Assembly: GCA_017307375.1 (NCBI GenBank)
Contig: JAFKFH010000006.1
Span: 372,001-436,000, forward strand
DNA from: Alphaproteobacteria bacterium
Lineage (GTDB): Bacteria > Pseudomonadota > Alphaproteobacteria > Ferrovibrionales > Ferrovibrionaceae
Reading direction: 5' to 3'
Length of the DNA stretch: 64,000 nt
The notes beneath the pieces are model-generated. The model saw nothing but the letters and a program-made list of their open reading frames with translations, was not told where the DNA came from and searched no databases. The position numbers and the translations under genes were made by a program. Below, one piece after another: positions 30,136 through 38,747 of this stretch (positions are counted from its first letter, which is position 1; the number at the start of each line of letters is the position of its first letter).

Positions 30136-31125
30136 ATGACGCTTCACACCAATCGCCGCCGATTCCTGGCCGGCAGTTCGGTCGCCATGGGCGCGGCCGC
30201 CGTCGGCGCGCCGGCCGTGCTGCGCGGCCAGGACGTGCCGCGTGTCCGCTACGTCACCTTCGCCACCGGCTATAACGTCGTGCTGAACGAATGGATGGCG
30301 GCCAAGCGCTACGACCTGAAGCGCGGCGTGAACATCGACGTGGTCAATTCCTACTCGTCGGTCTCGAACTACTACAACGACCTGACCGCCGGCACCTTCG
30401 ACCTCGGCATCGGCTCGTGGGACACCTTCGCCCAGCGCTATCTGGCCGGCGTGCCGCTGAAGCTCGTCTGCACCATCAACAACTACGACATCCTGCGCGT
30501 CGTGGCACTGGAAGGCGGGCCGGCTTCGCTGAAGGACCTGACCGGCAAGACGCTCGGCGCCACCCTGTCGTCGGGCGCCTACCGGATCATGAAGCTCGCC
30601 GCGCGCGACTTCCATCAGATCGAGCTGGAAAAGCAGGTCAAGGTCCAGAACGTCGAAAGCCCGGCGGCGGCCGTCACCATGGTGATGGGTGGGGCGATCG
30701 ATGCGGGGCAGAGCTGGGAACCCAACATCAGCGTCGGCGAATCGAAGGAACCGAAGCTGCGCTCGATCTACAATCTCGGCGAGGATTTCCTGAAGAACGC
30801 CGGCTTTGCGATGCCCTATTTCGGCTTCGCCCTGCGCAAGGAGATCGCCGAGAAATACCCCGGCGTCGGGCAGAAGATCGCCGCCTCGATGACCGACTGC
30901 ATCAACGGCGTAATGGCCAATCTGGACGAGGCGGTGAACCTTGCCGCCCCGAAGATGAAGGTCGACCCGGCGGTGCTGAAGAAGGCGTTCACCTCGGGCC
31001 GCCTGGTCTTCCGCCCCGGTGCGATGACCGATTCGACCTCGCGCAAGACGGTGAAGTCGGCGGCCGACTACCTGACCAAGAACCAGGTGTTGAGCAAGCC
31101 GCTCGACGACGGCTTCTTCATCTGA
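30136..31125 (+). CDS. ABC transporter substrate-binding protein (NMT1/SsuA-like, Tat signal)
   Basis: A 329-residue NMT1/THI5-like binding protein. The N-terminus TNRRRFLAGSSVAMGAAAVG is a twin-arginine (Tat) signal. LTGKTLGATLSSGAYRI and VTMVMGGAIDAGQSWEP are family landmarks for nitrate, sulfonate, taurine or aromatic-sulfonate type ABC systems. It delivers a ligand to the permease and ATPase encoded next. Position beside the carotenoid-oxygenase operon suggests the pathway's substrate. Confidence 0.9.
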   Translation: MTLHTNRRRFLAGSSVAMGAAAVGAPAVLRGQDVPRVRYVTFATGYNVVLNEWMAAKRYDLKRGVNIDVVNSYSSVSNYYNDLTAGTFDLGIGSWDTFAQRYLAGVPLKLVCTINNYDILRVVALEGGPASLKDLTGKTLGATLSSGAYRIMKLAARDFHQIELEKQVKVQNVESPAAAVTMVMGGAIDAGQSWEPNISVGESKEPKLRSIYNLGEDFLKNAGFAMPYFGFALRKEIAEKYPGVGQKIAASMTDCINGVMANLDEAVNLAAPKMKVDPAVLKKAFTSGRLVFRPGAMTDSTSRKTVKSAADYLTKNQVLSKPLDDGFFI

Positions 31126-31144
31126 GACGGGAAGGGAGCGGGTG

Positions 31145-31960
31145 ATGAGCCAGGTAGCCGCGAGCGACAGCCTGTCGGGTCTGCCCAAGACGCGGGTGAC
31201 GATGTCGCCGGCGCGGCGCGACATGATCGCCCTGGCGATCGTCGTCGCCGCGCTGGTCGGGGTGATCCAGGTGGCCAGCTGGTATGTACCCGCCTATATC
31301 ATGCCGGCCCCGGCCGCGATCCTCGGCGCACTTTGGGTGCTGCTGACCGAGGAATGGACCCAGATCCTCGTGACCGTCGCCCGCCTGCTGGTGGCAGCCG
31401 GCTTCTCGATCGTCGTCGGCACCGCGATCGGCTGCGCGATGGGCATGTTCATGCCGATCCGGCCTTATCTGCGCTCGCTCGTCGTCATCGATTCGGGCAT
31501 CCCGGCACTGTCCTGGATGCTGATCGCGGTCTTCTGGTTCAAGGACCCGGAAGCCCGCATCTTCTTCATCCTGACCGTGATCCTGCTGCCGTTCTACGCG
31601 CTGAACGTGCATGACGGCATCCGCGCGCTGCCCAGGGAATGGTCCGAGGCGCTCGGCACCTTCCGTCCGTCGCGCTGGCAGATCTTCCGGCTGCTGATCC
31701 TGCCGCATGTCGTGCCCTATGTGCTGATGACCACCAAGTCGATCATCGGTTATGCCACCCGCATGGTGATCTTCGCCGAACTGATCGGTTCGGCCGTCGG
31801 CATCGGTGCCAAGATGGGCCTGGCGCAAGGGTCGTTCGAAATGGCGACGGTCCTGGCCTGGACCGTGTTCCTCGTCATCTTCAACATCGTCATGCAGGCC
31901 CTGGTCGCCGCGGTGGAGGCGCATCTGCTGCGCTACCGCGTCGAAGCGCAGGCACGCTGA
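31145..31960 (+). CDS. ABC transporter permease (SsuC/TauC-like)
   Basis: A 271-residue inner-membrane permease with about six hydrophobic helices. The EAA loop near the ATPase contact is EWSEALGTFRPSRWQIFRLLILPHVVPYV. The preferred start is the ATG at 31145 after GGGAG, rather than the adjoining GTG at 31142. It follows the binding protein by 19 bases and precedes the ATPase by 12. Confidence 0.9.
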   Translation: MSQVAASDSLSGLPKTRVTMSPARRDMIALAIVVAALVGVIQVASWYVPAYIMPAPAAILGALWVLLTEEWTQILVTVARLLVAAGFSIVVGTAIGCAMGMFMPIRPYLRSLVVIDSGIPALSWMLIAVFWFKDPEARIFFILTVILLPFYALNVHDGIRALPREWSEALGTFRPSRWQIFRLLILPHVVPYVLMTTKSIIGYATRMVIFAELIGSAVGIGAKMGLAQGSFEMATVLAWTVFLVIFNIVMQALVAAVEAHLLRYRVEAQAR

Positions 31961-31972
31961 AAGGGGCGCGTC

Positions 31973-32734
31973 ATGGACGAAATCGTTCTCGACCGGGTCA
32001 GCCATCGCTTCGGCGACCATCAGGCGGTGCAGGATCTGTCGCTTGCCGTGCGGCGCGGCGAGATCGTCGCGATGGTCGGCAAGACCGGCGCGGGCAAGAG
32101 CACCGCGTTCAGCATGATCATGGGCAATCTGAAGCCCGACGAAGGCGAGGTCCGCGTCGCCGGCCTCGATCCCTATGCCCAGTTCCAGGCGCTGCGGGGC
32201 CGGATCGGCGTCTCGTTCCAGACCGATCGGCTGCTGCCGTGGCGGCGGGCACGCGAGAATGTCGAGATCGGCATGCAGATCCTGGGCGTGTCGGCGGCCG
32301 AACGGCGCCGGCGGGCCGAGGAATGGCTTGCCCGCGTCAAGCTTGCCGACGCCGGCAACAAATATCCGCACGAGCTGTCGGGCGGCATGCGCCAGCGCGT
32401 GTCGCTGGCCCGTGCGCTGGCCATCGACCCGGCGATCCTGCTGCTCGACGAGAGCTTCTCGCAGCTCGACGAGGTCACCTCGCGCGCGCTGCGCCGCGAT
32501 TTCAGCCAGTTGATCCGCCAGCTCGGCAAGACCTGCCTGTTCATCACCCACCGCATCGACGACGCGGTCGAGATGGCCGACCGGATCGTCGTGCTGGCGG
32601 CGCCGGCGCGGGTCGCGCTCGATATCGAGCCGCGCCGGCACGATGCGTCGACCGGAACGCTGCACGCGCTGGTCGAGCGCGCGATGGCCGGCGAGGCCGC
32701 GCCCCCCAGGGCCGCCGCGGCGGGCGGGCGCTGA
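31973..32734 (+). CDS. ABC transporter ATP-binding protein (SsuB/TauB-like)
   Basis: A 253-residue ABC ATPase. Walker A is VGKTGAGKST at about residue 35, the signature is ELSGGMRQRVSLARAL, Walker B is AILLLDES, and the switch His is in FITHRIDDAVEMADRI. It energises the adjacent permease. The gene ends in TGA sharing one base with the ATG of the hydrolase gene (32734). Confidence 0.93.
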   Translation: MDEIVLDRVSHRFGDHQAVQDLSLAVRRGEIVAMVGKTGAGKSTAFSMIMGNLKPDEGEVRVAGLDPYAQFQALRGRIGVSFQTDRLLPWRRARENVEIGMQILGVSAAERRRRAEEWLARVKLADAGNKYPHELSGGMRQRVSLARALAIDPAILLLDESFSQLDEVTSRALRRDFSQLIRQLGKTCLFITHRIDDAVEMADRIVVLAAPARVALDIEPRRHDASTGTLHALVERAMAGEAAPPRAAAAGGR

Positions 32735-33458: not shown

Positions 33459-34241
33459 ATGGATCTGGGATTGCGGGGTAAGGTCGCGCTGGTCACCGGG
33501 GCCAGCCGCGGCATCGGGCGTGCCATCGCCGAAAGCCTGGCCGCCGAGGGCGCGAAGCTCGCCCTGGCCGCGCGCGATCTGGCGGCGCTGGAGGAGGTGG
33601 CGGAAGCGGTCGCGGCGCGCGGTAGCGAAGCCTTCCTGCATCGGGCCGATCTGCGCGAGGCCGAGGCGCCGCAGGCCTTCCGCGATGCCGCCATCGCCCA
33701 TTACGGCCGCATCGATATCGTGGTCGGCAATGCCGGTGCCACCAAGCGCGGTGATTTCCTGCAGCTCAGCGAAGCCGACTGGGCCGACGGTTTCGCGCTC
33801 AAGTTCCACGGCCATGTGCGGCTGACGCGGGCGGCCTGGCCCGATCTCGTCGCGTCGAAGGGCACGCTGCTGTTCGTCATCGGCGTCGGCGGCCGCACGC
33901 CCGGGGCCGAGTTCACCATCGGCGGCTCGGTCAATGCCGCCTTGATGAACTTCACCAAGTCGATGGCCGACCGTGGCGTCGCCGACGGCGTGCGGGTCTG
34001 CGCGGTCAACCCGGGCGCCATCGCCACCGCCCGGCTGCAGACGCGCATCCGCAGCTACGCGGCCGAGCATCGGCTGGACGAGACCGCGGCGGCCGAGGGC
34101 CTGGCGCGTGCGATGGGCGTCGCCCGCTTCGGCCGGCCCGACGAGATCGCCGACATGATCACCTTCCTGGCCTCCGACCGTGCCGCCTACGCCCAGGGCG
34201 CGCTGATCGACGTCGATGGCGGTGTGACGCGTACCTTGTGA
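33459..34241 (+). CDS. SDR-family protein lacking the catalytic triad
   Basis: A 260-residue classical SDR fold: VTGASRGIGRAIAESLA near residue 13 binds NAD(P), NAGATKRGD (about 91) and VNPGAIATARLQ follow, and VDGG ends it. The active-site segment is abnormal: aligned to the family, the Tyr position is Gly155, the Lys position Asn159 and the Ser position about Gly142 (GVGGRTPGAEFTIGGSVNAAL). It may therefore be a non-canonical reductase or a binding protein. It is co-directional with the ABC operon and 38 bases after the hydrolase. The fold is sure; activity is doubtful. Confidence 0.86.
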   Translation: MDLGLRGKVALVTGASRGIGRAIAESLAAEGAKLALAARDLAALEEVAEAVAARGSEAFLHRADLREAEAPQAFRDAAIAHYGRIDIVVGNAGATKRGDFLQLSEADWADGFALKFHGHVRLTRAAWPDLVASKGTLLFVIGVGGRTPGAEFTIGGSVNAALMNFTKSMADRGVADGVRVCAVNPGAIATARLQTRIRSYAAEHRLDETAAAEGLARAMGVARFGRPDEIADMITFLASDRAAYAQGALIDVDGGVTRTL

Positions 34242-34298: not shown

Positions 34299-34367
34299 GG
34301 GCCTTGACTATCTCCCCTGCGGCGGGCAACCAGAATGGTGCTCTGCATGTCGTTGGGGGAGACGATC

Positions 34368-37298
34368 ATGACGCGCTTGCTGACCTGGGCCTCGCTGGCC
34401 CTGACCCTGCTGTTCGCGCTGCCTGCGCAGGCGATCCAGATTACCGGCACCTTCGTCGCCGGCCCGGCCCTGGTCGTCGAATCGGTCGTCGGCGCCTATC
34501 TGATCAGCAACGGCCAGGTGACGACCCAGCCCATTTCCGTCTACGTTACCAAGGGCGCCGGACAATTCGTCCTGACCGTGCCGCCCAGCACCCCGGTCCT
34601 GGTCGTCGGCAATTTCGTGCCGAACGGCCGCTACGACGATCCCGTGCTCGGCCGCACCGAGCAGCTCTCCACGATCATGCGCGCGGTGCTGGTGACCGGC
34701 ACGTCCGACATGGCGCTGACACTCTCTCCGATCAGCGAGGCGGCCGCGCAGGTCGCGCTGGGCGAGACGTCGGCACAGGCGCCCGCGCCGCTGACCGAGG
34801 CGCTGATCCGCGCCACCCAGGCCAAGGCGCAATCCTACCTGCTGTCCGTCGATCCGCTGGCCACCACGCCGCTCGATGCAACCAGCGCCGCGGCGATGGC
34901 CGGGGCCTCGCCGGCGCAGCGCCTGCTGGCGGTGGCGCTTGCCGGGATCTCCTATCAGCGTTCCGCGACCGGCCAGACCCTGTCGGCGGTCATCCAGAAC
35001 GTCGCCCAGCTGATCCAGGCCGGCTGGACACTGCTTGATGCCGGGGGCGGCTTCTCCGCCGATCCGGAGAGCGAGCCGGTGGCCGCCATGGCGCCGGTCC
35101 AGAATGCCATCGGCAGTTTCGTCAACAGCACCCAGAACCGGTCGGGCGTCGCCAGCCTCTATGACCTTGCCGCCATCCTGCTGGGCGGCGGGCCGCGCGG
35201 CGGCACGCCGGGCGCGCCGTGGACACAGGCCTGCATCGAGTCCGTCACCGCCGACTTCGCCATCCGCGATGCGATCGCGCAAAGCCCGCTGGCCCAGGCG
35301 CAATGGCGGACCATCTCGGCCTACGGCAATCTCGCCTGGGGGCCGTCACCGACGATCTATCCGGCAGTGACCATCCCGGCCGGCTGCGATCCGGTCACCT
35401 GGCAGCAGCAGCGCCTGCTGGCCGCCGCCAATCACTTCATCCAGCAACAGCACAACTACTGCCACCACTACATTCCCGGCTGGAATTCGGCCGGGCTGAC
35501 CTTCCCCCAGTCCAACGGGCCGAACGCCGGGCCCGGTCCCTCCTATTGCTATACCGGCTCCGGCGCCGGCATCGCGGCGAACGCCGCGACGCAGACCGGC
35601 CTCGACTGCTCGAACTATACCTCCTGGCTCTACAACTACGCGCTGGGCGGGGTGCGGATGACCGGCGGGATCACGGCCCAGGGCGGCTCGCTGCCGACCG
35701 CCGACCGCGCCTACAACTACGGCAATGCCTGGGCACCCGGCACGCTCTACGAGCGGCCGGCGCAGTGGCAGGGTTACATCACCAAGGGCCAGGCGCAGTA
35801 CCAGCAATATCCGTTCCAGCCCGGCGACCTGCTCTATGTCGGGCCGACCGCGGCCGACGCGGCGAAGGGCAAGATCTCGCATGTGGTGATGTGGACCGGG
35901 ATCCAGGCCGCCGACGGGTCGGGCCGCTATCTCGTGACCGAAAGCTTCGGGGCGATCGACAACGACGGGGTCAAGCCGCAGGCGGCGATTCCCAACCGCT
36001 TCCCGTTCAGCGGCCCGGCCGGCTTCACCGGCGCGGCCTATACCGGCTATCTGAACAACGCCGGCCCGAACCTGCGCTATTTCGAAGGCACGTTCCGCGC
36101 GACCAATCTGGTGCACTACCGCCGGATCATCAACGCGCCGTCCGGCTACTACACCATTCCCTACTCGGCCGGCACCGGGGTCGAGCAGGGCCGGCTGGCG
36201 ATCGACGTGACGATCGCCGGGGCGCCGGCCGGCACGGTCACCGCCTCGCTCGACACCGGCTCGCGCGGCTTCTGGGTGACGCCGGGTCTGGCACCGGCCG
36301 GCAGCGCCGCGTCGGCGCAATCGGTGCCGGGCTACATCTTCTATTGGAGCAGCGGCCATGTCCGCGTCGGTTACTGGACGCCGATGGCGGTGACGTTCCC
36401 GGCGGCGACGGCGCAGGGTGGCGCCACCGGCCCGGCGACCGCGACGATCCCGGTCCTGGTCGCGACGCTGCAGGGCTGCGTCGTCGGCACCTGGCCGAAC
36501 GCCAGCTGCACCGACGGCACGCTGAGCCCGCCGACCGTGCAAGGCGCGATGATGGGCATCGGCTTCGACCGCACGGGCCACGGCACCGGCTATGGCAGCG
36601 CCACGCCCGATCCGACGGGGCCGGGCACCACGGCGAACCTGCAGATCCTCAATCCCTTCCTCAATCTCGACCAGATGAAGGGCGGCACGATGCGCAGCGG
36701 CTACATCCTCGGCACCGGCGGCATCACCCTGGGGCTGACCGCCGCCAATACCGCCCAGACCTACAACGGCGCGCGCAGCGCCTATGCCTACACCCAGCTC
36801 AAGCCGACCGGCCGCCCGGCGGTGGCGGGCGCGCCGACCGACTGGCTGCCGATGACCGGCGCGGTGACGCTACAAGGCAAGACCTATGCCGCGGCCCAGG
36901 CCGTGCTCGACATCGGCATTCCGAACATGTTGATCACGCTGGGCAACGCCACGCCGTTCGCCGGCCAGGTGACCGCGGGCAACACGACCTACCTGTCCGC
37001 TGCTTCCGGTACCCTGGACATCGACCTGCAGAACGGCAACGGCCGGGTCGGCTACAGCATCGCCGTTCCCGATCCCGGGGCGGTGGTGCCGCCGAACGCG
37101 ACGCTCAGGCCGGCCAATGTCGCGCTGTCACCGGCCCAGCCGGTCTGGTGGACCAATGAAAGCCGCGACACCCTGGTCAATACCGGCATCTATGCGCTGA
37201 ACGCCTTCAACTATCTCTACGATGCCCAGGACGGGCTGATCGGGCTGCAGCTCAATGCGACGTCGGACGGCAAGGGCGCGCATGTCCGGACCAACTGA
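34368..37298 (+). CDS. Large exported protein: NlpC/P60-like plus pepsin-like modules
   Basis: A 976-residue secreted protein. The ATG at 34368 follows GGGGGAG; MTRLLTWASLALTLLFALPA-QA is a Sec signal. Residues ~25-300 are Ala-rich with no assignable domain. Residues ~340-560 resemble NlpC/P60 peptidases: Cys414 in LDCSNYTSWLYN, PGDLLYVG, and His505 in SHVVMWTG. Residues ~610-970 resemble an A1 (pepsin-like) bilobed protease: Asp629 in LDTGSRGFWV, with the pepsin-type Trp seven residues later, and Asp848 in AVLDIGIPN as second-lobe Asp. A final YDAQDGLIGLQLN matches the pepsin end. The second motif is DIG rather than DTG/DSG, so proteolysis is uncertain. It probably acts in the envelope or outside the cell. 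It is monocistronic. Confidence 0.72.
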   Translation: MTRLLTWASLALTLLFALPAQAIQITGTFVAGPALVVESVVGAYLISNGQVTTQPISVYVTKGAGQFVLTVPPSTPVLVVGNFVPNGRYDDPVLGRTEQLSTIMRAVLVTGTSDMALTLSPISEAAAQVALGETSAQAPAPLTEALIRATQAKAQSYLLSVDPLATTPLDATSAAAMAGASPAQRLLAVALAGISYQRSATGQTLSAVIQNVAQLIQAGWTLLDAGGGFSADPESEPVAAMAPVQNAIGSFVNSTQNRSGVASLYDLAAILLGGGPRGGTPGAPWTQACIESVTADFAIRDAIAQSPLAQAQWRTISAYGNLAWGPSPTIYPAVTIPAGCDPVTWQQQRLLAAANHFIQQQHNYCHHYIPGWNSAGLTFPQSNGPNAGPGPSYCYTGSGAGIAANAATQTGLDCSNYTSWLYNYALGGVRMTGGITAQGGSLPTADRAYNYGNAWAPGTLYERPAQWQGYITKGQAQYQQYPFQPGDLLYVGPTAADAAKGKISHVVMWTGIQAADGSGRYLVTESFGAIDNDGVKPQAAIPNRFPFSGPAGFTGAAYTGYLNNAGPNLRYFEGTFRATNLVHYRRIINAPSGYYTIPYSAGTGVEQGRLAIDVTIAGAPAGTVTASLDTGSRGFWVTPGLAPAGSAASAQSVPGYIFYWSSGHVRVGYWTPMAVTFPAATAQGGATGPATATIPVLVATLQGCVVGTWPNASCTDGTLSPPTVQGAMMGIGFDRTGHGTGYGSATPDPTGPGTTANLQILNPFLNLDQMKGGTMRSGYILGTGGITLGLTAANTAQTYNGARSAYAYTQLKPTGRPAVAGAPTDWLPMTGAVTLQGKTYAAAQAVLDIGIPNMLITLGNATPFAGQVTAGNTTYLSAASGTLDIDLQNGNGRVGYSIAVPDPGAVVPPNATLRPANVALSPAQPVWWTNESRDTLVNTGIYALNAFNYLYDAQDGLIGLQLNATSDGKGAHVRTN

Positions 37299-38747
37299 TC
37301 ACGGCGCGATAGCGACCCAGGGGCAGGCCTCCTCGTAGGCGCGCGCCAGCTGGAGCACGGCGAGGTCGGCGCGCGGCCGGCCGATCAGCTGCATGCCCAT
37401 CGGCTGGCCCTCGGGGCCGAAGCCGACCGGCACGCTGATCGCCGGGCAGCCTGCCATCGTCGCGCCGGCGACCACTTCCATCCAGCGGTGGTAGCTGTCC
37501 ATCCGGCGGTCGCCGATTGCCTTGGGCCAGTGCTGGTCGACCGAAAAGGGGAAGACCTGGGCGGTCGGCAGGGCCAGGAAATCATGATCCTCGAACAGCG
37601 CCAGCAGGGCGTGGTACCAGGCCATGCGGGCATCGCCGGCGCGCTGCACGTCGATCGCCGACAGTTTCAGCGCCCGCTCGACTTCCCACTGCGCTTCCGG
37701 CTTCAGCTTGGCGCGGCGGGCGGGATCCTCGAAGATCGGCCCCAGCTTGCCGATCAGCCCGAACTGGCGCAGCACGGAGAAGGCTTGCCACAGGCGCTCG
37801 AAGTCGAAGCGGGGCAGGGCTTGCGCAACCTCGCAGCCCAGCCCGGCGAGAATGTCGAGCGCCGACCGGCAGAGGTCGAGAATGCCGGGCTCGATCGCGA
37901 GATGGCCGCCGAGATCACCGCCCCAGGCGATGCGCAGGCCCTTCGGGTCGCGCTGCAACCGCTCCTCGAACCGATAGCCGGGATCGTCGAGCGACAGCGG
38001 CGCCCGCGCGTCGTAGCCTGCCTGCACGCTCAGCAGCAGGGCGAGGTCGTCGACCGAACGGGCCATCGGCCCCTCGGTGCCGAGCTGTCCGAAGAAGCCG
38101 TCGAGGGTCGGCGCATAGGGCACCCGGCCCTGGGACGGGCGGAAGCCGAAGACGTTGTTGAAGGCTGCGGGGTTGCGCAGCGAGCCGCCCATGTCGCTGC
38201 CGTCGGCGACGGGCAGCAGACGGAGGGCCAGCGCCACGGCCGAGCCGCCGGACGAGCCGCCGGCGATCCGGCCGGGGTCGTAGGCGTTCCGGGTGATCCC
38301 GTGGACCGGATTGTAGGTATTGGAGCCGAGGCCGAATTCGGGTGTGTTGGTCTTGCCGATGATGATCGCGCCGGCCCGCCGCGCCCGCTCGACGATCACG
38401 GTGTCGACCTCGGGCACGAAATCGGCGAAGAGCGGGGAGCCGTAGGTGGTGCGCAGCCCCTTGGTATTGGCCAAATCCTTGATCGCCTGCGGAATGCCGA
38501 ACAATGCGCCGCGGCCTTCGCCACGGGCCAGCGCCGTATCGGCCTCGCGCGCCTCGGCGATCAGCACGTCGCGCGGGCGCAGCGAGATGATCGCGTTGTA
38601 GGTCGGATTGACCCGGTCGATATGGTCGAGATAGGCGCCCATCACCTCGGCCACCGAGACATGGCGGTGGCGGATCGCCTTGGCCAGCGCGCCCGCGCCG
38701 AGGCGGCAGATGTCGGGGGCGGAGGCGGTGATCGATCCGGGTGTCAT
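37299..38747 (-). CDS. Amidase (amidase-signature family)
   Basis: A 482-residue amidase-signature hydrolase. The Ser-cisSer-Lys triad is visible: Lys in FGIPQAIKDLANTKG and the Ser pair in GRIAGGSSGGSAVALAL, with KTNTPEFGLGSNTYNPVHG between them. It hydrolyses a carboxamide, such as an aryl- or alkyl-amide, to acid and ammonia. It starts at the ATG at 38747 and shares a TGATCA with the opposing exported-protein gene (stops abut at 37298/37299). Its likely cotranscribed neighbour is the MFS exporter upstream. Confidence 0.92.
   Translation of the reverse strand: MTPGSITASAPDICRLGAGALAKAIRHRHVSVAEVMGAYLDHIDRVNPTYNAIISLRPRDVLIAEAREADTALARGEGRGALFGIPQAIKDLANTKGLRTTYGSPLFADFVPEVDTVIVERARRAGAIIIGKTNTPEFGLGSNTYNPVHGITRNAYDPGRIAGGSSGGSAVALALRLLPVADGSDMGGSLRNPAAFNNVFGFRPSQGRVPYAPTLDGFFGQLGTEGPMARSVDDLALLLSVQAGYDARAPLSLDDPGYRFEERLQRDPKGLRIAWGGDLGGHLAIEPGILDLCRSALDILAGLGCEVAQALPRFDFERLWQAFSVLRQFGLIGKLGPIFEDPARRAKLKPEAQWEVERALKLSAIDVQRAGDARMAWYHALLALFEDHDFLALPTAQVFPFSVDQHWPKAIGDRRMDSYHRWMEVVAGATMAGCPAISVPVGFGPEGQPMGMQLIGRPRADLAVLQLARAYEEACPWVAIAP

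Follow-up and report, generated by a model that had tools for sequence, protein, structure and literature searches.

Does an exported protein that carries a cysteine-peptidase-like and a pepsin-like module in one chain use both of them, and how did such a chain arise? The question is raised by a gene at 34368-37298 (+ strand) of the window, i.e., the whole 64,000-nucleotide stretch analysed here, taken from contig JAFKFH010000006.1 of an Alphaproteobacteria bacterium of the Ferrovibrionaceae. Its product (976 amino acids, the query of the searches reported below) had been described in the first-pass annotation as an exported fusion of an NlpC/P60-like peptidase and a bilobed pepsin-like module; this architecture is supported, and it was found in one genome only. 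Judged from sequence comparison, and with a probability of roughly 0.5, the protein would be an exported cysteine peptidase or amidase joined to a cis-acting, perhaps weakened aspartic protease. The gene and its modules are as follows.

34368..37298, + strand: fusion gene, 976 codons plus stop in a single open frame
34368..34433, + strand: residues 1-22, Sec-type signal ending in AQA (by eye)
34434..35237, + strand: residues 23-290, N-terminal module, by eye a beta-sandwich and then helices, common to the paralogue and two Burkholderiaceae proteins
35238..36131, + strand: residues 291-588, NlpC/P60-like cysteine-peptidase module (PF00877)
36132..37295, + strand: residues 589-976, bilobed pepsin-like module

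A fused gene and the kin of its pepsin-like half

Translation of the frame reveals no internal stops, and the GC content at third codon positions (GC3) stays between 0.89 and 0.96 in seven stretches measured across the gene, so that, the values being even and the module junction included, the frame looks like a single gene. Judged by eye, MTRLLTWASLALTLLFALPAQA at the N-terminus is a typical Sec signal, in agreement with the first-pass annotation. The source genome also encodes a paralogue (P0009, L002:1501-3303) of 600 amino acids, which shows 58% identity over query residues 9-591 and shares the N-terminal and NlpC-like modules but lacks the pepsin-like one. The paralogue ends in ...LVHYRRVIGS, and the query continues with ...LVHYRRIINAPSGYYT into the pepsin-like module, which joins at the natural C-terminal end of the paralogue with hardly any linker. 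As P0009 stops exactly where the pepsin-like module starts, the fusion appears to be a C-terminal addition to one duplicate, the module having presumably been gained and not lost. Over the 577 codons of the shared part, nonsynonymous divergence (dN) is 0.36 and synonymous divergence (dS) 0.57; the ratio of about 0.63 is weak evidence of constraint, since dS is damped by the high GC3.

The relatives of the C-terminal module were gathered in an alignment of 16 sequences (A3, the query plus 15 relatives). A query-free profile of the 15 relatives, taken from an alignment made with the query included, scores the module at ~153 bits (E-value 4.3e-46 to 5.8e-46, in a small set), and a search with just the module picks up a protein of genome G118 (E-value 1.6e-19). 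By these scores the module is truly homologous to a bacterial pepsin-like family, and the query-free profile rules out a chance motif match. That the resemblance is nonetheless accidental, or the fusion an artefact of assembly or annotation, is suggested by its presence in a single genome; the homology score, the one open frame with even GC3 inside a contig of 529,746 bases (genome of 7,539,962 bases in 41 contigs) and a junction that coincides with the natural end of the paralogue make this scarcely credible.

Searched against the Protein Data Bank, the A3 profile matches pepsin (1AM5, 1.3e-4) and the PE_PGRS16 domain (4EHC, 1.4e-4), and the 1AM5 alignment spans both lobes, including the DTG motif, the second D-x-G and the closing Asp/Gly. 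A further match, to the pilus assembly protein 6JBV (3.6e-4), is short and was taken as chance. In Pfam, with E-values up to 1, Asp_protease_2 is matched by 12 of the 16 family members (best 1.1e-4) and PE-PGRS_C (PF20729) by six (best 5.7e-9); P0002-P0004 reach 25.8-30 bits with the latter, under its 33-bit cut-off. The Pfam pepsin family is absent among the matches listed for the query and its relatives. The anticipated profile match to a pepsin fold is thus borne out by the family (1AM5, 4EHC) and not by the query itself, which has no Pfam aspartic-protease match. Cys704 and Cys714 are common to 11 and 12 of the 15 relatives, respectively, which fits export. A single-sequence structure model of the module is of low confidence (mean predicted local distance difference test, pLDDT, of 33.6).

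Since the family profile matches pepsin and the PE_PGRS16 domain at about 1e-4, the nearest kin of the family is, on profile evidence, PE-PGRS_C/PecA and not the cytoplasmic shewasin, the type of bacterial A1 peptidase named at first pass. Rawlings and Bateman describe bacterial pepsin homologues, shewasin-like proteins among them, that have no signal peptides and are predicted to be cytoplasmic (PMC2761423). The query module resembles them in being bilobed with two Asp residues, and the family profile matches pepsin 1AM5, but the export signal and the motifs of the query rule out a shewasin-type A1 peptidase as defined there. PecA, an aspartic protease of the cell surface, cleaves both itself and other proteins; among bacterial aspartic proteases, which are generally cytoplasmic, it has been set apart as a mycobacterial enzyme associated with the surface (PMC6819658). 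As in PecA/PE_PGRS16 (PF20729, 4EHC), an exported aspartic-protease fold is attached to another module, and the lobe 1 DTGSTG is shared with the pepsin-like family. The query differs in having no PE domain match (NLPC_P60 is its sole Pfam match up to E 10), a Sec-type and not a type VII signal, DIG instead of DSG in lobe 2, and no PF20729 match of its own; PHROGs and NCBIfam yielded no match to it either. That bacteria export aspartic proteases is in itself not new, since secreted retropepsin-like ones are reported from Pseudomonas aeruginosa (PMC12239564); they are likewise bacterial and secreted and are set apart here as retropepsin-like by description. The rickettsial APRc is described as retropepsin-like, too. 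New is the combination of two known folds, and the surprise is modest.

The NlpC/P60-like and N-terminal modules

The residues on which the assignment of the middle module turns are the following.

35457..35477, + strand: YCHHYIP (residues 364-370), Y-x-H-x-x-I-P box before the Cys; Tyr364, His366, Ile369 and Pro370 invariant (6/6)
35607..35609, + strand: Cys414, presumed nucleophile, in D-C-S
35880..35882, + strand: His505, presumed general base, in H-V
35940..35942, + strand: Glu525, possible third catalytic residue; Glu or Asp in five of six proteins, Ser in P0008

The positions of Cys414 in LDCSNY (412-417) and of His505 in SHVVMW (504-509), on which the first-pass annotation relied, were verified by script. 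All six members of the corresponding alignment (A4) match NLPC_P60 with E-values up to 1, and DCS, GDLL and HV are invariant in all of them. Two relatives exceed the curated PF00877 cut-off of 23 bits, namely L035 from a viral contig (49.5 bits, 4.5e-13, model positions 1-92 of 105) and L003 (24.9 bits, 2.1e-5); the other four members score 13.4-19.7 bits, and the query stays under the cut-off with 17.1 bits as a whole protein and 19.7 bits as a fragment. The earlier NlpC/P60 assignment therefore stands through these two relatives and the invariant Cys and His, and not through the query's own score. On this basis the middle module is NlpC/P60-like in sequence, and Glu525 is probably its third catalytic residue, the alignment around it being loose for the two Burkholderiaceae rows.

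In NlpC/P60 enzymes the usual third catalytic residue is His, Asn or Gln. The acidic residue found here in five of six proteins, together with the unusual Y-x-H-x-x-I-P box and the sub-threshold score, would suit a different papain-fold amide-bond enzyme (e.g., a transglutaminase-like protein or an acyl transferase) or a domain that only binds the cell wall. This is rather improbable in view of the score of L035 on PF00877, the matches of the same protein to phage tail families, one of them named 'tail protein with lysin activity', and the invariance of Cys, His and GDLL throughout the alignment. A three-sequence structure model of the NlpC core (pLDDT 44.8, predicted template modelling score 0.50) has its best Foldseek match at an E-value of 4.8, to an unrelated protein.

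Relatives of the middle module comprise four plasmid-borne Burkholderia/Caballeronia proteins, a protein of a Singulisphaera metagenome-assembled genome and the L035 gene, the one NlpC-module relative among viral contigs. The Singulisphaera protein (L003:5728-6681, + strand; 317 amino acids) has the NlpC-like module with a Y-x-H-H-H-I-P box and no pepsin-like module. In L035 (2098-3528, + strand), a BPL_N/ThuA-like (amidotransferase-like) front is joined to the NlpC-like module.

The roughly 300 N-terminal residues had been left unassigned at first pass, and no Pfam family covers the module up to E 1. They are shared with the N-termini of other proteins: the profile of alignment A2 matched seven of 398 genomes, the query's genome included (at most two candidates scored per genome). 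The six matches outside the source genome cover the N-terminal part only (to position 257 of 676, E-values 1.8e-11 to 2.4e-4), and in the five of them that were examined (all but L013) the later parts differ, that of L014 resembling a glycoside hydrolase by eye. As the matches end within the N-terminal part and the remainders differ, residues 23-290 look like a module common to various exported proteins.

The putative aspartic active site and the possible function of the fusion

Both catalytic Asp residues are kept in the pepsin-like half: Asp629, Gly631, Ser632, Asp848 and Gly850 are invariant in A3 (16/16). Its motifs are located as follows.

36252..36263, + strand: lobe 1 motif D629-T-G-S
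36342..36344, + strand: Tyr659 (YxSSG), a candidate for the flap tyrosine; aligned relatives have Tyr in 14 of 15 cases
36549..36557, + strand: M728-M-G730, lobe 1 hydrophobic-hydrophobic-Gly (psi-loop; motif as defined in PMC2761423); Gly invariant (16/16)
36909..36917, + strand: lobe 2 motif D848-I-G, altered from D[TS]G
37179..37187, + strand: N938-T-G940, in the lobe 2 hydrophobic-hydrophobic-Gly place (register from the pepsin 1AM5 alignment); Asn invariant (16/16)

A script reproduced the placement of Asp629 in LDTGSRGFWV (628-637) with Trp636 exactly seven residues later, of Asp848 in AVLDIGIPN (845-853), 219 residues after Asp629, and of the closing motif, LYDAQDGLIGL, at 950-960. The spacing of the Trp had been taken as a sign of pepsin and proved coincidental: aligned relatives have Val at this position in 12 of 15 cases and Trp in none, so Trp636 is not inherited evidence for pepsin kinship.

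The DIG noticed at first pass is present and peculiar to the query, since all 18 distinct relatives with lobe 2 aligned carry D[TS]G (L045-L047, aligned in lobe 1 only, are excluded from this count; two close pairs among the 18 are 89% and 85% identical). In a conservation count over 14 rows, after two near-duplicate rows had been dropped, 26 of the 28 near-invariant columns are retained in the query, against 21-27 of 27-32 in the 13 peers; residue 849 lies outside these columns, as the peers alternate between Thr and Ser. Given the uniform D[TS]G of the relatives and the 26 columns kept, DIG is, as far as the alignment tells, an isolated change in an otherwise ordinary family member. A decayed gene is not favoured, in view of the same columns and the dN/dS comparison with the paralogue.

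Several observations weigh against a working protease of this type. Xaa-Xaa-Asp-[ST]-Gly-[ST], given for A1 peptidases in the published definition (PMC2761423), fits S-L-D629-T-G-S in lobe 1 except that the first Xaa is Ser and not hydrophobic; lobe 2, with V-L-D848-I-G-I, departs from it, and most relatives, too, end this motif in Val or Ile. Of the hydrophobic-hydrophobic-Gly motifs required by that definition in both lobes, M-M-G730 fits in lobe 1, and lobe 2 has N-T-G940, where relatives are identical or have N-[ST]-[GS] or N-L-G. The two loops are joined by the fireman's grip, for which the hydroxyl comes from the Thr/Ser that follows each catalytic Asp (PMC11313796, PMC7072860). Ile849 has no such hydroxyl; its inability to form the grip lowers confidence in an active protease. 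Taken domain by domain, the profile matches are weak: the 1AM5 lobes come out at 0.44 and 1.8, and lobe 1 of 4EHC at 0.0011. In Pfam, the query fragment has no match to Asp_protease_2 or PE-PGRS_C (E up to 1), and the query has none to PF20729/NF038019 (PE-PGRS_C/PecA) up to E 10. The sub-threshold PF00877 score belongs to the same side of the balance. We know of no activity for family members outside mycobacteria, and no search was aimed at that alone.

The pepsin-like module might accordingly be a non-catalytic pseudo-protease that serves the NlpC module in substrate binding, targeting or regulation, comparable to the pepsin-fold inhibitors of plants, which bind and do not cut. The altered DIG among relatives that uniformly have D[TS]G, a divergence too large for any Pfam aspartic-protease match and the existence of an NlpC paralogue that does without the module are all consistent with this possibility, which deserves serious weight but remains the less favoured one: the query retains both Asp residues and, doing no worse than its peers, 26 of the 28 near-invariant columns, and in several inactive pepsin-folds it is an Asp that has been lost.

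If the preferred reading of two working enzymes holds, the Sec signal and the N-terminal module would be followed by an NlpC/P60-like peptidase or amidase (Cys414, His505 and probably Glu525), with the pepsin-like module directly appended. An aspartic-protease site would still be made up of Asp629 and Asp848, and Ile849, standing where relatives have Thr/Ser, may have weakened it. This site may cleave in cis or nearby, i.e., its own chain or envelope proteins at the cell surface, in a PecA-like manner, and the cysteine module would act on cell-wall peptide or another amide substrate. The fusion would then allow one to ask, in a naturally occurring protein, whether two unrelated peptidases that share a chain regulate one another, and whether an aspartic protease tolerates Ile in its catalytic loop.

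Other carriers, further searches and surroundings

As a stand-alone protein, the pepsin-like module occurs in Methylobacterium bullatum, on a Xanthomonas sacchari plasmid and in further genomes, mostly of the source organism's class; that of G118 shares 89% identity with the protein of Methylobacterium. The Methylobacterium relative has DTG in lobe 1 and lobe 2 alike. A signal-like N-terminus was seen by eye in 17 of 18 distinct relatives, that of L043 being lipoprotein-like, and L028 shows none. Genome G732, with two tandem genes, and genome G662 encode autotransporters of 1113-1148 amino acids that have the module at the front, and the autotransporter beta-domain PF03797 is matched in these three relatives with E-values of 1.5e-50, 3.4e-51 and 5.9e-56.

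L049:543-3896 and L049:4152-7490, + strand: tandem autotransporters with pepsin-like front part, lobe 1 DTG and lobe 2 D[TS]G
L050:834-4277, - strand: autotransporter with pepsin-like front part, same motifs

These proteins are possibly an undescribed class of aspartic-protease autotransporters. The open frames of the other module matches besides the query measure 333-522 amino acids. One of them (L051:179-1744, + strand, identical to L025) has the pepsin-like module followed by passenger-like sequence by eye and stops at 522 amino acids. The A3 search also gave three weak lobe-1-only matches: L045 (218 amino acids), L046 (306 amino acids) and L047, the last a lobe-1-like DTGS match within a 3894-amino-acid open frame of genome G120. 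No relatives of the pepsin-like module were found in the viral contigs searched.

If the family is active, exported pepsin-type proteolysis would be wider among Proteobacteria and combined with several export routes. A bolder proposal, made tentatively from these comparisons, is that of an undescribed proteobacterial family of exported bilobed pepsin-like proteases on varied carriers (a signal peptide alone, the barrel of a type V autotransporter or an NlpC/P60-like enzyme), in which the D-I-G half of the fusion works and acts on its own cysteine-peptidase partner by processing or activating it.

The novelty of the fusion, likewise claimed at first pass, has held so far. The whole-protein search matched one of 96 genomes, the source genome itself (at most eight candidates scored per genome). 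Module-only searches matched four of 299 genomes, alignment A1 ten of 385 and alignment A3 nine of 397, in samples that overlap and include the source genome, with few candidates scored per genome. Five records of the plasmid collection match the whole protein, and none covers both modules. A pattern scan of the genomes of 84,980 species, which catches close relatives only, found one relative, of the NlpC part. No second fusion of NlpC and pepsin-like modules was seen in the genome samples, the plasmid collection or the viral contigs searched, and in the open-access literature nothing was recognised that describes such a fusion or pepsin-like autotransporter passengers. A candidate precedent, PMC3355149, was discarded, as it concerns a caspase-like protein with YARHG domains.

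DUF3443 was considered as a pepsin-like counterpart encoded by a separate gene. Two of the four Burkholderia/Caballeronia records have a DUF3443 gene near the NlpC-module gene, each time as the only DUF3443 match of the record; the other two records (Caballeronia) have none. A profile comparison based on two near-identical DUF3443 sequences gave a probability of 1.8% and an E-value of 0.027, so kinship with the pepsin-like family is not established and the candidate was rejected. DUF3443 was not found in the source genome, in a search whose control likewise matched nowhere, and is not mentioned in the open-access literature consulted. On the two plasmids (L008:4756-9947, Caballeronia; L009:7623-12742, Burkholderia), the NlpC-module gene stands with a gene for a TAXI/NMT1-like binding protein and the DUF3443 gene, in differing orders.

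In a scan around the fusion gene, no site resembling a promoter or terminator passed. The purine-rich stretch GGGGGAGA, shortly before the ATG at 34368, may serve as ribosome-binding site.

34355..34362, + strand: purine-rich stretch, possible ribosome-binding site

Upstream in the window (30136-32734, + strand) lies, by eye, an ATP-binding cassette transporter set (binding protein, permease and ATPase) with no sign of a link to the fusion gene. The 5' neighbour at 33459-34241 is by eye a short-chain dehydrogenase gene, and on the other side a convergent gene (37299-38747), by eye an amidase, abuts the fusion gene.

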